From Chloroflexota bacterium (lineage in GTDB: Bacteria; Chloroflexota; Anaerolineae; J102), in NCBI GenBank assembly GCA_013151415.1, contig JAADII010000197.1, positions 1-56,028 on the forward strand: a DNA stretch of 56,028 nt, given 5' to 3'. The stretch's first letter is position 1. Each line of letters starts with the position of its first letter. Under the pieces are notes generated by a model that did no database searches, was not told the DNA's origin, and saw only the letters and a list, made by a program, of their open reading frames with translations. This document shows positions 37,297 through 46,386 of the stretch, one piece after another. Both the position numbers and the translations under genes were made by a program.

Positions 37297-38802
37297 TTAA
37301 TGGCGGAAGTGTCTCATGCCGGTGAAGACCATGGCCAGGTCCAGACGATCGGCCGCGGCGATGACCTCCTCATCGCGGATGGACCCGCCCGGCTGAATCA
37401 CGGCCCTCACGCCGAATTCGGCCGCCAGCTCGATGCCGTCGGGGAAGGGAAAGAACGCGTCCGACGACATGACCGCGCCGCGGGCCTTGTCGCCGGCCTT
37501 CATGCCCGCGTAGCGCACCGCGTCCACGCGGCTCATCTGGCCCGCGCCCACGCCCACCGTGGCCTGGTCTTTGACAAACACGATGGCATTGGACTTGACC
37601 CACTTGGCCACGCGCCACGCGAACAGCAAATCGGCCATCTCCTGTTCGCTCGGTGCGCGGCGGGTGACCACCTCCACCTTGTTCACGAACCCCTCGTCCC
37701 AGGTTTGGGCCAGCAATCCGCCCTCGACCGACATCAACTGCAAAGGAAAGCGCTTCGCGCCCGTGGCCTTCATCACCCGCAGATTCTTCTTCTTGCTAAG
37801 CCGCGCCAGGGCTTCGTCTGTGAAATCGGGCGCGGCCAGCACCTCGACGAACAACTTGCCGATGGCCTCCACCAGGGCCAGGTCTACGGTGCGGTTGACG
37901 GCGATGATGGAGCCGAACGCGCTCACCGAGTCCGAGGCCAGGGCGCGTTCATAGGCCGTGACCAGGTCGTCGTGCGTGGCCAGACCGCAGGGGTTGGCGT
38001 GTTTGATGATGGCCACGGCCGGAGTCTCGAACTCGTTGACCGCACCCCAGGCGCCGTGCAGGTCGCCCAGATTGTTGTAACTGAGCGCCTTGCCCTGAAT
38101 CTGTTCGAACGCGGGTTCGTAGCCCCGCCAGCGATAGAACGCGGCCTGTTGGTGCGGATTTTCACCGTAGCGCAGGGTTTGCACCCGCTCGGCCACCAGA
38201 TTCAGCACTTCGGGCGCGGCCGTTTCGCCCTCGACCTGTCTGGTGAGATATTGGCTGATGGCCGCGTCGTAGGCCGCGGTGTGGCGAAAGGCTTTCAGGG
38301 CCAGGCCGCGGCGCTGCTCCAGGCTGAGACCGTCCCCGGCCAGGGCCTCGGCCACCCAGCCGTAATCGGCCGCGTCCACCACCACGACCACCCGCTCGAA
38401 ATTCTTGGCCGCGGCGCGTAGCAGGGTCACCCCGCCGATGTCGATTTGCTCCACGGCCTGGGCCTCGCTCACGTTTGGGTCGGCCACCGTGCGCTCGAAG
38501 GGGTAGAGATTGCACGCGACCAGGTCGATAGGCTCCATGCCGTGCGCGGCCAGCTCGGCCTGGTGTTCATCGGTTGCTCGGGCCAGGATGGGGCCATGGA
38601 TGGCCGGATGTAGGGTCTTCACGCGGCCGTCGAGGATTTCGGGAAAGCCGGTGATTTGAGAAACAGGCGTCACAGGCAAGCCTGCGTTTTGCAGGGCTCG
38701 CGCGGTGCCGCCGCTGGCGACAAGCTCCGCGCCCATCTCATGTAAGGCGCGGGCGAAGTCGATAAGACCGGTTTTGTCGGAAACGGATAGCAGGACGCGC
38801 AT
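37297..38802 (-). CDS. purH: Bifunctional AICAR transformylase/IMP cyclohydrolase
   Basis: The 501-residue protein has the cyclohydrolase domain ([29 protein letters not shown]) and the transformylase domain with [10 protein letters not shown] and the [13 protein letters not shown]-type region. It completes IMP synthesis, and uses the AICAR that histidine synthesis (HisA/HisF) also releases. It starts directly after (CTCAAC)6, with no SD. It is the last gene of a minus-strand run from nusA. Confidence 0.95.
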
Positions 38803-38838
38803 GTTGAGGTTGAGGTTGAGGTTGAGGTTGAGGTTGAG
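38803..38838. repeat. Perfect (CTCAAC)6 repeat abutting the purH start codon
   Basis: Read on the minus strand, six perfect CTCAAC units end exactly at the purH ATG. The whole spacer between the DUF1786 stop and purH is 42 bases, so the repeat fills it. No G and no SD. Confidence 0.95.
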
Positions 38839-38844
38839 AGGACT

Positions 38845-39990
38845 TTACATAACTTCCCAGGGTGGGCGGGCTGCGGCGGGGTTGGCGCTCATGGAGGCCC
38901 GGATGGGGTCGGCCAGCTCGGGCATGATGTCGGCCACCGCGGCCAACATGCCGAAACAGCCCGAAATCATCATATCGCCGAAGGGCGCGGCGAAGTGAAC
39001 GTTGAGACTCGAGGCCTGCATCATGGAGCGTCGCGGGCCGGTGACCACCACATCCAGCGCGGCGGACGCGGGGAGGATGGATTCCTGACGATACATGAGC
39101 GCGCCGTGGCCGTGGTCGTCGAACACATCTTCATGGCGCAGCGTCCCTTTGGCCAGGGCAACGAGCAGGCCGTCCAGTTTGGCCACATCGATGAGACCGG
39201 TGTGGTGCTCGAACACGCCTTCGATGCCCTCTGCGCCCAAACGGAAGGCCAGGGTGTGGAAATTGCCCACGTTGGCGATGATGACGGGCGAGCGATGGCG
39301 CACTTCGGGGTCGAAGGTCGCGCCCAACACGGCCGCGGGCGCGGTGTCCATGACCACCAGAGGCGCGTCCACATCCTGGGCCGAAGCCGCGACCGCTTGC
39401 AGGCGGGTCATGATGCGCGGGATGGAATCCGCGGGGAATGCGAACGCGCTGAGGCGATTTTCTGCGCGGATGCGCTCGTCCAGGTAATCGAAGCGGAACT
39501 GGCGGTCGGAATAATCGGGCGGCGAGTCGCCGTGGTCGAACACGGCCACCGCGACCGCGGCCAGATCGTGCAACGAGACGCCGAAACGGGCGAACACCTC
39601 GGCAATGGCCGGAAAGTCGAAATCGCGCAGTTCGATGCGCTCGACGCGGCCATCTAGCCGCGCGGCTTCATCCTCGCTCACGATTTCCACGCCCATCTCG
39701 CGCACTGCGTCCAGATCGTCGTTGAAGGTGCGCGCGGCCTGGGGCGTGGCGAATAAGGGCAACCCCGCGCGCGCGTGCTCCTCGGCCGCCCACTGGCTGG
39801 GGCCGCCGCCCATGATCACGCCGCTGAGCAGGATGGGCCGTTTCGCGGCCGTGGCCTGTCGGATGCGTTGTCGCACCATCATGGTGGGGGAGGGCAGCAC
39901 GAGTTTGAAGCCGTTTTCGATGTGCACGCGCGAATCATAAAGGAAAATGTCTTGCGTGCCGGTGCCAATGTCTACGGTGAGGATTTTCAT
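38845..39990 (-). CDS. DUF1786 family protein
   Basis: The 381-residue protein starts with the family pattern KILTVDIGTGTQDIFLYD, a possible ASKHA-type phosphate loop, and has VFDHGD and NVGNFHTLAFRL later. DUF1786 proteins have an uncharacterised function and have been linked by name to pyruvate formate-lyase activation. The leader upstream of its ATG has no G in 29 bases (CCCACTCCCCCCACCCCATC and on). It lies between ribF-archease and purH. Confidence 0.82.
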   Translation of the reverse strand: MKILTVDIGTGTQDIFLYDSRVHIENGFKLVLPSPTMMVRQRIRQATAAKRPILLSGVIMGGGPSQWAAEEHARAGLPLFATPQAARTFNDDLDAVREMGVEIVSEDEAARLDGRVERIELRDFDFPAIAEVFARFGVSLHDLAAVAVAVFDHGDSPPDYSDRQFRFDYLDERIRAENRLSAFAFPADSIPRIMTRLQAVAASAQDVDAPLVVMDTAPAAVLGATFDPEVRHRSPVIIANVGNFHTLAFRLGAEGIEGVFEHHTGLIDVAKLDGLLVALAKGTLRHEDVFDDHGHGALMYRQESILPASAALDVVVTGPRRSMMQASSLNVHFAAPFGDMMISGCFGMLAAVADIMPELADPIRASMSANPAAARPPWEVM

Positions 39991-40053
39991 GAGTTGATGG
40001 GGTGGGGGGAGTGGGTGCTGATAGCAGCCTCGCGGCTCAAAAGCTTATGGCTC

Positions 40054-41403
40054 TCATGTGTCGAAAACGACGGTCGCGACCCAGTCCTCATCCGAGGAAG
40101 AGGGCGGGGTGACCGACAGATCGTAATAGGTTACGGCCTTGATATGGGCCATTTCGCTGCGATTGCGCGCGCCCATCACCAATGCGCGAAGGCTGGTCGC
40201 GTCGATTTGTTCGATCCAGAAACGCTGAAACAGGGCTTCTTGCGTTTCCGATTGCCAGAGCAGCTCGCTCAACCAATTGACCAGCAAATCCTCATAATCC
40301 AGACCTTGCACTTCGATGATCTGGCGCACCGAAGGGCCCTGAATATCGAACGCGCCCTGCATCGCGAACATGGCCAGGGCTGCGTTGGCGTATAAATCGG
40401 CCTGGTCGCGACCGTAGACGCGAATGGCCCAATCTGCGGTGTGGGGAAGCTCTTCGAAACGCTCCCGCTGCGGGATTCGCGGCTCTTTTTGCAGTAGCGC
40501 GGCCGCCCAATCGCGATCGCGCGCGATCTGCTCCACCAGCGCTTGCACATTGGGGAATTTCATTTCTTCGCGCAGACGGGCCACCAGTTCCAATTCCACG
40601 CATTGGCCGTAAATATCGTGATCGAAGTCAATGAGGTGGGCTTCCACGGTCCGGTGCGTTCCGTTTAGAGTGGGGCGAACGCCGATATTGGTGACCGAGG
40701 GATGACGTTCATCGCCCAGCCAGGCCCAGGTTGCATAGACGCCATCCGCGGGAATGACGCGGCCAACCGCAACCGCGATGTTGGCTGTGGGAAAACCGAT
40801 GGTGTGTCCGCGGCGCTCGCCTTGAACCACCAGGCCCGAAACGCGATAAAAGCGCCCGAGCCTGGATGCAGCCCACTCGACGTGACCTTGCTCGATGAGT
40901 CGGCGAATTTTTCTCGAACGAACCGGCTGGCCTTCCCAATAAAATTCCGGGAAGACGACCACTTCGTAACCCAGCTCTCGCCCCAATTGGGTGAGAAACG
41001 CCACATCTCCCCGACGCTCTCGGCCCAATGCGAAATCTGGCCCCACCCACAAACTGCGCAAGCCTATGCGCTTATGCAACAGGCGCATGAAGGCCTCGGC
41101 TTCGGTTTGCGCGGTGCGTCGCGTGAAAGGATGCACCACCGTAAAATCGAGGCCGGTTTCGCGATAGAGGGCCAGCCGCTCTTGCAAAGAAGTGAGAAAA
41201 GGAATTGGCTGCTGAGGGCTCAGCACGCTGGCTGGATGAGGGTGAAACGTGAGTAACCCCGCGGCCGCGCCTTCTCGCCGGGCGGCCGCTCGCATTTGCG
41301 AAATGAGTGCGCGGTGCCCTCGGTGCACGCCATCGAAGTTGCCGATGGTGAGATAAGTCGGGCCTTGGAACTCGACGTTTTGGATGGATTCGTAGACTTG
41401 CAT
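40054..41403 (-). CDS. ribF: Bifunctional riboflavin kinase/FAD synthetase fused to an archease domain
   Basis: Residues 1-310 are RibF: the nucleotidyl-transfer motif GNFDGVHRGH (21-30), the SRKIRRLI region, and the flavokinase motif GHTIGFPTANI (199-209). Residues 315-449 match archease: FEELPHTADWAIRVYGR (316-332), YEDLLVNWLSELLW (370-383), IKAVTYYDLSV (421-431) and the C-terminal VFDT. Archease normally helps the RNA ligase RtcB; the conserved Asp in HTAD and the C-terminal Asp are kept. The fusion is one uninterrupted frame of 449 residues. RibF-truB-rbfA neighbours are ordinary for RibF. No rtcB is in the window. Confidence 0.9.
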   Translation of the reverse strand: MQVYESIQNVEFQGPTYLTIGNFDGVHRGHRALISQMRAAARREGAAAGLLTFHPHPASVLSPQQPIPFLTSLQERLALYRETGLDFTVVHPFTRRTAQTEAEAFMRLLHKRIGLRSLWVGPDFALGRERRGDVAFLTQLGRELGYEVVVFPEFYWEGQPVRSRKIRRLIEQGHVEWAASRLGRFYRVSGLVVQGERRGHTIGFPTANIAVAVGRVIPADGVYATWAWLGDERHPSVTNIGVRPTLNGTHRTVEAHLIDFDHDIYGQCVELELVARLREEMKFPNVQALVEQIARDRDWAAALLQKEPRIPQRERFEELPHTADWAIRVYGRDQADLYANAALAMFAMQGAFDIQGPSVRQIIEVQGLDYEDLLVNWLSELLWQSETQEALFQRFWIEQIDATSLRALVMGARNRSEMAHIKAVTYYDLSVTPPSSSDEDWVATVVFDT

Positions 41404-41433
41404 GGAATATTGCGTGAAGCGACCGCGTATGCG

Positions 41434-42336
41434 CTATGCTTGTCTTGCAACTGGTTTCAGCACTTTGTGCGGTGCGAGGAGGCATGTTTCTCGGTCCACT
41501 CGACCGACGCCAACAAGCCGCTCGCGAGGGCCAAAGACGCGCACTTCGCCCGCATAGGGACAGTTGGGCAGGGTGAAGCGCTGACCCACCGAAAAACGAT
41601 ACACCAAATCTTCGGGCAAGACAAGAGGCGGCAACATGCCCAATGCCGCGGATAGACCATGTACGAATTGGCGCCAGCGAGGTCCGGCGGCTTCCAACTC
41701 TTCCAGAGTGACGGCGTCCTCCACGCGCCATGTGCCCGACGCCAACCGGCGCAAAGCCGTGACATGACCTCCACAACCCAGCCGCTCGCCGATGTCATGC
41801 GCGAGCGAGCGGATATAGGTGCCGGGCGTACAGACCGCGGTGATGGTGAGGAAAGGCGGGTCCCAGGCGTCTAAATCCAGCTCGTAGATGGTCACCCGCC
41901 GCGGTTTGCGCTCGACCGTGACCCCCGCGCGCGCCAGCTCGTGCAAGGAGCGGCCTTTGAGCTTGAGAGCCGAGTACATGGGGGGGATTTGTGCAATTTC
42001 TCCACGAAAATGATCCAGGGCGCGCTCTAATTCGTCTGGGGTAAGTGAAGGAACGGGAGCGGTCTTTAAGATGCGACCTTCCGCGTCGTAGGTGTCGGTG
42101 GTTTGCCCCAGGCGGATGGTGGTCTGGTAGGTTTTGGCGCTGGCTTGTAAATACTCGACAATGCGCGTGGCCGAACCCAGGCACACCAGCAGCACGCCCG
42201 TGGCCAGGGGGTCCAGCGTGCCCGCATGACCAACGCGACGGACGCCGGTCAGACGCCTCACCCGCGCCACAACATCGTGTGAGCTCAGACCTGAGGGCTT
42301 ATCGATGTTGAGGACGCCGATGTCGCCTTTCGCCAT
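41434..42336 (-). CDS. truB: tRNA pseudouridine 55 synthase
   Basis: The 300-residue protein has the catalytic Asp motif GHAGTLDPLATG, KTYQTTIRLGQTTDTYDAEG and CTPGTYIRSLAHDIG. It modifies U55 in the T-loop of tRNAs. A C-terminal PUA-like region is present (VLPEDLVYRFSVGQ). Its leader is C/A-rich without SD (ACCCCCCCCATATCCAATC). It lies between nrnA and ribF in the usual nusA-infB set. Confidence 0.95.
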   Translation of the reverse strand: MAKGDIGVLNIDKPSGLSSHDVVARVRRLTGVRRVGHAGTLDPLATGVLLVCLGSATRIVEYLQASAKTYQTTIRLGQTTDTYDAEGRILKTAPVPSLTPDELERALDHFRGEIAQIPPMYSALKLKGRSLHELARAGVTVERKPRRVTIYELDLDAWDPPFLTITAVCTPGTYIRSLAHDIGERLGCGGHVTALRRLASGTWRVEDAVTLEELEAAGPRWRQFVHGLSAALGMLPPLVLPEDLVYRFSVGQRFTLPNCPYAGEVRVFGPRERLVGVGRVDRETCLLAPHKVLKPVARQA

Positions 42337-42409
42337 GATTGGATATGGGGGGGGTGAACCTTTTTCATCAGGAATTTCCGCGCCAAGCTCTGGGATGCGC
42401 CGGCTTTGG

Positions 42410-43378
42410 TTACGACGATAGCAACGCCTCCAATCGGGCCAGGATCATGCGACGCACTTCATCAACCGAGCCGGAAATGGTGCAGCCCGCGGCCAAGGGG
42501 TGCCCGCCGCCGCCAAATTCCAGAGCAAGGGCCGAGACATCATGCCCAGGACGAGCGCGAAAACTGCATTCAATCTCACCTTCGGGCAATTCGGTGAATA
42601 ACACGGCGATGCGCGCCTCTCGCACGCCCAGGATGAATGACACCAGGCCTTCGGCGCGCACCAAAGCGCCCAGACCTTCGCGCATGGCTTGGGTGTTCAG
42701 TGCACTGATCACGCCGCGTTCGCTCAACTCCACCGTATCCAGAACTCTCGCCCAAAGTTGCACCAACGCAAACGAACGCGTATTCAATGTCTCTTCCGTG
42801 ATCTGACTCAATGCCGCGCCGGCTTCCATTAACTTCGCCACGACAGACATGACCCGCGGCGTGGTGTTGGCCGTGCGAAAGCCGCGCGTATCTGTGACAA
42901 TGCCTGTCAGAATGCAGGTGGCCATATCCGTTTGCAGGGGAGCGCCCAGCGCGGCGGCCAGATAATAGATCATCTCGGCTGTGGCGCAGGCGCCCGGCTC
43001 GATCCAGTTTACATCACCGAAGCGAGCATTGGTGATGTGGTGGTCGATGACGAACAAAGGCAGACTATCGTGCCATGCCGCGCGATACACCGAGCCCATG
43101 CGGTCGGGATCGCTGCTATCCAGGGCGATGACCATGTCCACATTTTGCTCCGCGTCCTGAATGATGCGATCGACATAAGGCAGGAAACGTAGCGTAGGCG
43201 GAACCCGGTCCTGGCAGGCGAGAACGGGGTCTTGTCCTAAGCGATGCAACAAGATGCCCAAAGCGAGAAGACTGCCAATGGCGTCGCCGTCGGGTGCAAT
43301 ATGCGCGATAAGGAGTGGCCGCCGAGAGCTTTGAAGACGCTCCAGGAGTTCGGGCGGGGGTTGCAACGGGAGGTTCAC
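42410..43378 (-). CDS. nrnA: DHH/DHHA1 phosphoesterase, NrnA-type nanoRNase
   Basis: The 322-residue protein has APDGDAIGS (first metal motif), ALDSSDPDRMG, the DHH motif VIDHHIT, and the DHHA1 GGGGHPLAAGC. It likely hydrolyses short RNA oligonucleotides or pAp. It starts with GTG overlapping the rbfA stop (GTGA), so the two are coupled. Confidence 0.92.
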   Translation of the reverse strand: MNLPLQPPPELLERLQSSRRPLLIAHIAPDGDAIGSLLALGILLHRLGQDPVLACQDRVPPTLRFLPYVDRIIQDAEQNVDMVIALDSSDPDRMGSVYRAAWHDSLPLFVIDHHITNARFGDVNWIEPGACATAEMIYYLAAALGAPLQTDMATCILTGIVTDTRGFRTANTTPRVMSVVAKLMEAGAALSQITEETLNTRSFALVQLWARVLDTVELSERGVISALNTQAMREGLGALVRAEGLVSFILGVREARIAVLFTELPEGEIECSFRARPGHDVSALALEFGGGGHPLAAGCTISGSVDEVRRMILARLEALLSS

Positions 43379-43770
43379 GTAGATGGCTCAGGATTGGCGT
43401 CCGGCGACTCGTTGTTTTCTGAAGCGTATTCCAGCGTTTCTAGAATCGCCTCTACGCGCCGGCTTTGTTCGTACAAACGGTCGATGCGGAAGATCAGCTC
43501 AGGCATGCGGCGCAACTGAATGCGAGCGGCTAACTCAGAGCGAATGTAGCCGCGAGCGCGTTCGAGCGCGGCCATCACTTCGGCCTCGTTGTTTACATCG
43601 GGTTCAAGCAACGTGACATAAATACGCGCGGCTTGCAGGTCGCGCGTCACATCGACGCGGCTCACCGCGATGCCATCCAGGCCCGGATCATTGAGTTCGT
43701 AGGTGAGCATGGTGTCGAGCTCGTTCAAGAACAGCTCGTCCAATCGTTCTTTACGATATGATCTGCTCAT
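43375..43770 (-). CDS. rbfA: Ribosome-binding factor A
   Basis: The 131-residue protein has the RbfA pattern MSRSYRKERLDELF, VSRVDVTRDLQAARIYVTLL and ELAARIQLRRMPELIFRID. It assists 30S maturation. A longer frame starts at 43842 but its extra residues are encoded by a GACCAA repeat, so MSRSYRKE is preferred. There is no SD; the repeat abuts the start. Confidence 0.92.
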   Translation of the reverse strand: MSRSYRKERLDELFLNELDTMLTYELNDPGLDGIAVSRVDVTRDLQAARIYVTLLEPDVNNEAEVMAALERARGYIRSELAARIQLRRMPELIFRIDRLYEQSRRVEAILETLEYASENNESPDANPEPST

Positions 43771-43836
43771 TTGGTCGCTTAGTCTGGTGGTCGTTTGGTC
43801 GCTTGGTCTACATTGGTCTATGCTGGTCGGTCGTCC
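43771..43836. repeat. GACCAAGC-type degenerate repeat between infB and rbfA
   Basis: Minus-strand words AGACCAA, GCGACCAA and ACGACCA recur about six times and end immediately before the rbfA ATG. It fills nearly the whole 75-base spacer after infB. Confidence 0.85.
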
Positions 43837-43845
43837 TCTCACTGC

Positions 43846-45819
43846 TCAGCGCACGCGCACTTGCTCGTAAGCTACGACGATATCGCCTTCGCGCGGCCTG
43901 TCGAAGCCTTCCACGGTCATGCCGCATTCATAACCTGCGCGCACTTCAGAGACGTCCTCCTGATAGCGCTTGAGGCTGGAAATTTTGCCTTTGTGGATTT
44001 CCTTGCCGTTACGCAACACCGCGGCTTCGGCGTCCCTTCGGACTTCGCCCTCGAGCACCATGCAACCTAGAACTTTGCCTCGGCCCTTGATGCGGAAGAT
44101 GGCCCGCACCTCGGCCCGGCCAATCTCTCGGCTTTCGTACACCGGCTCGAGCATGCCCACCAAGGCCTTGGACACGTCATCCACCAGATCGTAGATGACG
44201 TCGTAGGTTTTGATCTCGACGCCGTGTTGTTCGGCCTGACGTCGAGCGACCGCATCCGGCTTCACCTGGAAGCCCAATATCAAGGCGCGACTTGCAGCCG
44301 CCAGCATCACATCCGACTCAGAGATCGTTCCGACATCTTGGTGCAAAATACGAATCTTCACCTCATCGCTGCTCAAATCGTTAAGCGAGCTGACGATCGC
44401 CTCCAATGAGCCTTGCACATCGGCTTTGACGATGAGATTGAGTTCTTTGACCGCGCCTTCTTTGATCTGCGAGTATAAATCCTCCAGCGAGAAAGTGGTC
44501 ACTTTTTGTTTTGCCTGGCGGGCCTTTTCCTTACGTTCGGCCGAAATTTGGCGGGCGATGCGGTCGCTTTCCACCACCTGAAGAATATCGCCCGCCGCGG
44601 GGACGCCCTGAAGCCCGGTGACCAAGACCGGCGTGGAGGGAAGCGCTTCTTTGACAGGGCGACTTTGGTCGTCGAACATGGCGCGCACGCGGCCCCATTC
44701 TTGCCCCACCACCACGGCATCGCCAGGATGAAGCGCGCCTTTCTGCACAAGCACAGTGGCCACATTGCCCAAATGTCGATCTTGATGCGCTTCGATGACC
44801 GTGCCGATGGCGGGGCCTTCGGGGTTGGCTTTCAGGTCCAAAACGTCCGCGACCAACAGCACATTATCCAGCAATTCCTCGATGTTGATGTTCTTTTTGG
44901 CTGAAATGGGAACGACTGTGGTGTCGCCGCCCCAGTCTTCTGGCTGCAATCCCATATCGGCAAGCTGTTGCTTGACCCGATCGGGATTGGCGTTTTCTTT
45001 GTCGATTTTGTTCAGAGCCACCACGATAGGCACGCGCGCCGCGCGCGCATGAGCGATGGCCTCGCGCGTTTGCGGCATGACGCCATCATCAGCCGCGACC
45101 ACCAAAATGGCTATGTCGGTGGCCTGTGCGCCGCGCGCCCGCATGGCCGAGAACGCGGCGTGACCGGGGGTGTCGAGAAAGGTGATCTTGCGGCCATCGA
45201 CTTCCACTTGATAAGCGGCAATGTGCTGAGTGATGCCTCCGGACTCGCCAGCCACCACATTGGTGTGCCGAATTGCATCCAACAAGGTGGTCTTGCCATG
45301 GTCCACATGGCCCAACACCGTCACTACGGGCGGCCGCGGCTTGAGCTTGCTGGGATCTTCTTCCATTTCCAACAAGCGTTCGCGCAGGGTCTTCGGCCCT
45401 TCCACTCCCGGCTCGGCCTGAACCTCGACAATGGTTTCAGGGACGACTTCGATGCCAAATTCCTCGCCCACAATGGCCGCGGTGTCAAAATCGACCAATT
45501 CATTGATGTTGGCCATGGTGCCGTAGCTCATCAGGGTTTTGATGATTTCAATGGGGTTTGTGCCCATGGCCTGGGCCAGATCTCGCACCGAGATGACTTC
45601 GGGAATTTCGATGCGAGTAGGACGTTTTGGTTCGGGTTTGGGTGGTTTGGGCGGGGCTGCGGCCGCGCCTTTGCCGCTGTTGCTTTTCGCGCCGCCTGGT
45701 CGTCGTCGCCGTCGTCCTGGCCGCCGGCGGCTACGCGAACGGGCATCGTAACCGCTTGGGCCTTGCCGCGGTTCGATTATTATCTTCCGGTTTTGTTTTG
45801 GCTCAGAACGTTTCATCAT
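43846..45819 (-). CDS. infB: Translation initiation factor IF-2
   Basis: The 657-residue protein has a short basic N-terminus ([15 protein letters not shown]), an IF2_N-like segment ([20 protein letters not shown]) and the GTPase domain with [17 protein letters not shown] and NKID. It is on the short side for IF-2. It has a strong SD (AGGGAGG, seven bases before the ATG), unlike its operon neighbours rbfA and truB. Confidence 0.96.
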
Positions 45820-46098
45820 AATAAAACCTCCCTGCGGAGTTCAGAAAAATTGCTACAAAAAATATAAACAAAACGCACTTGCGCGATGACCGCGCAAGCC
45901 AGCAAGCGATATATCTGAACACACGAACGCAGGGAGGCCGAATCAAAGACCTGGTGAAAGAGCGGCCAGAGCGTAGGTCGCCAACCGACCATGCCGGCAT
46001 GGCCGGGCCACTACAGAGAACGGGGTGAATTCAATTCATGACCTGCACTCCTGCGTCGAAGTGTTCGGGAAAGATGCGGTTTAAGCAGGGCTGCGGTT
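45820..46098. other. 279-base spacer between ylxR and infB
   Basis: No gene seen. It contains a perfect 14-base palindrome CCATGCCGGCATGG at 45989-46002 and the infB SD region next to the start. A promoter for infB may lie here, but no clear -35/-10 pair is seen. Confidence 0.5.
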
Positions 46099-46386
46099 TC
46101 ATGTCTGCACAGTGCAAATTTGTTCCGCCACAGTAAGTAGCGCGATTCGCTCTTCCGAGGTGAGTTTCGTTTTCAGCGCTCGCTCCAATGCGCCGCGCTC
46201 GAGCGCCTTTTGCCAGCAGGCCAGCTCATTGCATAGGTAAGCGCCGCGACCTGGCGCTTTGCCTGTGGGATCATATGCAACGCCTTCGGGAGAGCGGACG
46301 ATGCGATTCAGTGCACGTTTAGGCATGATGCGCCGACAGGCGATGCATGTACGTTGAGGAACATGCTTGCGTCGTCCTTTGGCCAT
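46099..46386 (-). CDS. ylxR: YlxR family RNA-binding protein
   Basis: The 95-residue protein has RTCIACRR and GRGAYLCNELACW, the family's motifs (RTCIxCR...GRGAYLC). It is found next to nusA and infB in many bacteria and is thought to bind RNA. It starts 27 bases after nusA ends. Confidence 0.92.
   Translation of the reverse strand: MAKGRRKHVPQRTCIACRRIMPKRALNRIVRSPEGVAYDPTGKAPGRGAYLCNELACWQKALERGALERALKTKLTSEERIALLTVAEQICTVQT

Follow-up and report, generated by a model that had tools for sequence, protein, structure and literature searches.

The locus analysed here raises the question of why one open reading frame should encode both an enzyme of flavin synthesis and a protein known as an activator of RNA ligation. 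The window, that is, the whole stretch of 56,028 nucleotides that was analysed, is a contig (JAADII010000197.1) of a Chloroflexota genome, probably of the class Anaerolineae, with 4.52 Mb (197 contigs, 97.7% complete). On its minus strand, a single frame with an ATG at position 41403 and a stop at position 40054 (40054..41403) encodes a protein of 449 aa, P0001. Three Pfam domains were found in P0001 above their curated cut-offs: the FMN adenylyltransferase (FAD synthetase) module (FAD_syn, PF06574; residues 13-164, 40912..41367, E 7e-40), the riboflavin kinase module (Flavokinase, PF01687; residues 182-303, 40495..40860, E 5e-42), and an archease domain (PF01951; residues 316-448, 40060..40458, E 1e-28, 100.6 bits against a cut-off of 25). 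A preliminary description, made from the sequence alone, had placed both modules of RibF and an archease in one 449-residue frame, with no strand given, and this reading is borne out. The NCBIfam model TIGR00083 for RibF scored 242.7 bits (cut-off 184.35), whereas the archease equivalog model NF001617, which carries the name "hypothetical protein", scored 80.4 bits, below its own cut-off of 126. The archease half is classed, by PF01951 and its key residues, as a domain relative of archease and not as an NF001617 equivalog. RibF and archease proteins of known structure align in sequence to the respective halves of P0001. A structure predicted from two sequences only, P0001 and one relative (L034), had a mean pLDDT of 32.8, which is too low for use. 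No other archease match and no second FAD_syn or Flavokinase match were found in the 4.52 Mb genome. Being the sole RibF and the sole archease of the genome, P0001 would thus have to provide both functions.

Could the join have been made by a frameshift, a misassembly or chance readthrough? A search for other proteins with both domains in this order, which the preliminary description had proposed, covered 61 relatives at the whole-protein level and recovered full-length fusions (query residues 1-449 or nearly) in 16 of the 20 genomes of the window's family (f1), its own included; three of the remaining four genomes had no match and one had a partial match. Full-length matches to P0001 were also found in further families of the class. 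Archease was detected in 179 of the 298 genomes sampled in the class, and at least 41 of these 179 carry the fusion, 16 of them in f1. The 41 fusions span 14 family codes (f1, f8, f9, f12, f14, f16, f17, f23, f26, f30, f31, f32, f44 and f47). Both halves are under purifying selection, with dN/dS of 0.04-0.23 where computable (10 pairs of our own choice, many with saturated dS; archease not computable in 4). The same fusion in so many separately assembled genomes and the selection on both halves make an artefact extremely improbable; nothing was found in its favour, and we rejected it on the full-length fusions in f1 and in 13 further family codes. The preliminary description had named relatives with separate ribF and archease genes, together with a frameshift or assembly artefact in the window, as what would undo the fusion. 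Many relatives do carry the two genes separately, often adjacent to each other, but the fusions recur at full length and the separate genes are no sign of an artefact.

The nearest named public record is a Caldilineales MAG (JAGFJG010000083.1), whose fusion is 65% identical to P0001; it looks to be of the same species as one of the sampled genomes (G003) and was therefore not counted again. No full-length fusion outside the class appeared among the best matches listed for 301 genomes of the phylum (about 38 of them of the class). For other phyla, a single scan was made with peptide patterns taken from P0001, a method that finds close relatives only; it gave the same Caldilineales MAG as nearest named record. 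As the preliminary description had supposed, no described fusion of RibF and archease was found in the open full-text literature, which the search covered. The accessible part of PMC9600594 mentions no such fusion, and the words "fusion" and "fused" are absent from PMC3973293 and PMC10630183.

The gene order around archease offers an origin for the fusion. We read 118 archease loci, 100 from the class survey (every listed frame of at least 397 aa outside f1 and a spread of others) and 18 from the search for relatives of P0001; this choice favours fusions, so that the ratio of fused loci is no prevalence. The two genes were fused in 41 loci, adjacent in 26 (both on one strand, with archease as the next gene after ribF) and near each other in one. 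The remaining 50 loci showed no ribF upstream; in 4 of them less than 600 nt of upstream sequence was available for judging this. Among the fused loci, archease is directly followed by rtcB in 8 of 41 and ribF is preceded by truB in 34; for the adjacent loci the corresponding counts are 19 and 25 of 26. The one near locus and 46 of the 50 unlinked ones also have rtcB directly after archease. These neighbour counts indicate a class gene order truB-ribF-archease-rtcB, of which the fusion is a variant. Archease also adjoins rtcB in the "tRNA splicing operon" of Desai et al. 2014 (PMC3973293, accessible part), as it does in many relatives of the window. The present arrangement differs from that operon in two ways: archease is preceded by truB and ribF and may be joined to the latter, and rtcB lies elsewhere in the window's clade.

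A tree of the 67 fused or adjacent rows, built from concatenated domains, required nine changes between the fused and adjacent states, at least five of them forced by starred branches; such counts are independent of the root. A single clade of 40 fused rows was rejected (p-AU 3e-32) in a quick tree that left out the degenerate protein of G034 and had ten changes. A tree of archease only (117 rows, G034 left out) gave nine fused/other changes, of which starred branches force only two; its 130 columns resolve little, and the concatenated tree was used instead. Fusion (or splitting) has happened repeatedly. The 67 rows fall into two sets. The first has 33 rows (11 fused and 22 adjacent) with rtcB downstream in 27. 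The second holds the window and has 34 rows (30 fused and 4 adjacent) with rtcB downstream in none, three of the 34 having less than 600 nt of downstream sequence. We infer that the direction was fusion, not fission. The simplest origin is a ribF-archease(-rtcB) gene order in which the stop codon of ribF disappeared: in an operon truB-ribF-archease(-rtcB), common in the class, this stop would have been lost and the start codon of archease would have gone later. In one locus with separate genes (L060, genome G031), ribF and archease are in the same frame, parted by a TAG stop 24 nt before the archease domain, and rtcB lies downstream. The two genes share one frame except for a stop in G088 as well.

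The junction itself bears on whether one gene might yield two proteins, with archease made also or only as a separate product, whether through a translation start inside the frame or through proteolytic cleavage of the linker. A junction start codon with a Shine-Dalgarno-like sequence is present in 7 of the 41 fused frames, six of them among the 11 fusions of the first set, which keeps the operon, and the same-frame genes of G031 and G088 also speak for this possibility. In the window's set, however, only one of 30 fusions (G049) has such a start. The window linker (residues 304-315, 40459..40494) contains no ATG, GTG or TTG codon, so no internal initiation is evident. Linker lengths, taken as the residues between domain models, are moreover fixed per family in this set: 11 aa in 16 of 16 f1 fusions, 6 aa in 4 of 4 in f23 and 14 aa in 4 of 5 in f31. 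Separate production of archease is therefore quite unlikely.

In the window, the fusion gene is the last of a close series on the minus strand. Upstream of it lie truB (tRNA pseudouridine 55 synthase; 41434..42336, 30 nt away) and an NrnA-like DHH/DHHA1 phosphoesterase gene (42410..43378), both assigned by Pfam, and then two genes that, from their translations, we take to be rbfA-like (43375..43842) and infB for translation initiation factor IF-2 (43846..45819). The translation operon of bacteria has the order infB-rbfA-truB-ribF, and in many bacteria rpsO/pnp come after ribF. The window order is alike, with the DHH gene before truB, but archease comes after ribF here. Downstream of the fusion there is no rtcB; a DUF1786 gene (PF08735 by Pfam; 38845..39990, minus strand) is found instead, followed by what is presumably purH. 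A search for a flavin riboswitch found no Rfam family at gathering score in the window, and in a promoter/terminator scan of 38700-46100 the hits did not clearly exceed those in shuffled sequence (1 against a mean of 2.3, and 9 against 7.4).

The RibF half has its two modules in the same order as the FAD synthetase (FADS) of Corynebacterium ammoniagenes (PDB 2x0k), from which P0001 differs by its C-terminal archease and at two adenylyltransferase (FMNAT) positions. The HxGH motif, the PTAN motif (residues 205-208) and the catalytic Glu (E254, aligned to E268 of 2x0k) are present; the roles of the latter two in the riboflavin kinase module (RFK) are taken from the accessible part of PMC5428420. 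Compared with C. ammoniagenes, the FMNAT residues H27, H30, S163 and R167 are kept, N125 is replaced by Asp (D123) and T165 by Arg (R164), and the motif reads R-S-R-K-I-R instead of S-S-T-T-V-R. In C. ammoniagenes FADS, T165A keeps and T165D loses activity, and Asn and Asp are both natural at the N125 position (PMC3509593, accessible part). At the Thr165 position, T, S, G, R or V is found among fused proteins, and the residue varies in unfused ones too. Judged by these residues, full FMNAT activity of the window protein is not assured. Loss of FMNAT through fusion was considered and rejected, as unfused relatives, too, have the altered SSTxxR motif and none of 29 genomes has a second FAD synthetase above cut-off. 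In two fusions of family f12 (L042 of G065 and L053 of G030), the kinase module lacks the PTAN and catalytic Glu blocks, only 86-88 aa being left between FAD_syn and archease, and neither PF01687 nor the CTP-dependent kinase PF01982 was found elsewhere in the two genomes.

The archease half, compared with stand-alone archeases (P. horikoshii 4n2p, human 8odo/8btx), which are 16-kDa proteins, has RibF at its N-terminus. P. horikoshii archease needs H9, D12, K117, D141 and the C-terminal residue for RtcB activation, and its C-terminal carboxylate binds metal (PMC3973293, accessible part); D51 and K156 mutants of human archease have been assayed (PMC10944509, accessible part). In the alignment, H9, D12, K117, D141 and the final I142 correspond to H321, D324, K422, D448 and the C-terminal T449 of the window protein. 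D12 is kept in 41 of 41 fusions and both K117 and D141 in 40. Beyond D141 the chain runs on for exactly one residue in 40 of the 41 fused archeases, and it does so in every unfused one (26 adjacent, 1 near and 50 unlinked). The metal-binding carboxylate at its C-terminus would be the reason that archease is the C-terminal partner. The H9 position is less constant, with Tyr in 8 and Ser in 1 of the 16 f1 fusions. The only fusion without K117, D141 and the C-terminus is that of G034 (family f16; L138:1777-3150), whose archease half is decayed: HTAD has become NGAD, with Asn at the H9 position, and the C-terminal FD-x is lost. The RibF half of this protein scores normally (143-148 bits). No RtcB was found in G034 (97% complete), either by profile or with the RtcB of the window genome as query. 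Two members of the same family with separate genes keep an intact archease.

RtcB, which the preliminary description had proposed to look for in the same genome, is encoded on contig C86 (L137:798-3803) in a frame of 1001 aa. An intein of about 500 aa (Pfam Intein_splicing) splits this frame immediately ahead of the Cys of the DIN-C-GVR motif, and RtcB matches split in this manner were seen in other genomes of the class as well. With PF01139 at E <= 1e-100 (our own cut) taken as strong RtcB, archease occurs in 164 of 171 class genomes with strong RtcB and in 15 of 127 without (298 genomes, kinship uncorrected); of these 15, 6 show RtcB matches that are weaker or only partial. Weaker RtcB was found in 71 class genomes, 65 of them without archease, and may possibly represent archease-independent RtcB subfamilies. 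In f1, RtcB was not found in five of 20 genomes (G014, G006, G016, G019 and G005; 100, 81, 72, 76 and 91% complete). The preliminary description had taken archease as a protein of archaea and eukaryotes. This needs correction, since it is carried by more than half of the class genomes sampled, as counted above, and bacterial archease-rtcB operons are published (PMC3973293, accessible part).

These data also bear on the idea that archease has a target other than RtcB, or besides it, and acts as chaperone or specificity factor on RibF or on some further RNA enzyme. In P. abyssi, archease has a tRNA m5C methyltransferase as a target (cited in the accessible parts of PMC3973293 and PMC4275035), and archease persists in four of the five RtcB-negative f1 assemblies. 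Against this stand the tight co-occurrence of archease with strong RtcB and the decay of the archease half in G034, a genome without RtcB, and we regard such a role as very improbable.

A functional coupling of the halves, by which the flavin/redox state or the nucleotide chemistry of RibF controls or protects RtcB, is a further alternative. For example, RibF held near RtcB might deliver FAD to an RtcB-protecting flavoprotein, or the supply of ATP/FMN might gate archease. The recurrent fusion and the repeated ribF-archease-rtcB order fit this idea. The active-site Cys of RTCB is sensitive to oxidation, and the human FAD enzyme PYROXD1 protects RTCB by a shielding that is exclusive with archease (accessible parts of PMC12263435 and PMC10944509). 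However, rtcB never adjoins the fusion in the window's clade, 50 of the 118 archease loci read have no ribF upstream (4 of them judged on less than 600 nt), and adjacency to truB-ribF accounts for the fusion on its own. PYROXD1 is not known to be related to RibF. A common partner gene downstream of the fusions was looked for and rejected: in 13 loci viewed, with 8 genes scanned, the downstream genes are mixed and no common flavoprotein was seen. Coupling is therefore unlikely, and its most specific form is decidedly so. In that form, FAD from the RibF half, held beside RtcB by the archease half, would keep the RtcB Cys reduced or gate activation; the bacterial fusion would then resemble human PYROXD1 in its effect but would not share its ancestry. 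What the preliminary description proposed, flavin synthesis linked with RNA ligation or an archease step that depends on flavin, is unsupported as stated, the gene order giving the simplest origin.

The best explanation is probably that P0001 is trifunctional and that each of its halves does what its stand-alone relatives do, with co-expression as a plausible benefit. The N-terminal two thirds would be an ordinary RibF, phosphorylating riboflavin to FMN and adenylating FMN to FAD, and the archease half would act in trans on RtcB encoded elsewhere. What may have preserved the fusion is the need for both halves, together with their joint expression from an operon of translation and RNA metabolism.

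In these bacteria, natural fusion has repeatedly placed an essential enzyme of cofactor synthesis on one chain with the activator of a 3'-5' RNA ligase. This provides a defined protein for testing whether RNA repair is linked to flavin supply. The fusions point to the dependence of archease on a free C-terminus, since one residue stands past the metal-binding Asp in all but one of the 41, the exception belonging to a genome without RtcB. They can also be read as an evolutionary series, from the operon through an in-frame junction with the start codon remaining to the obligate fusion.
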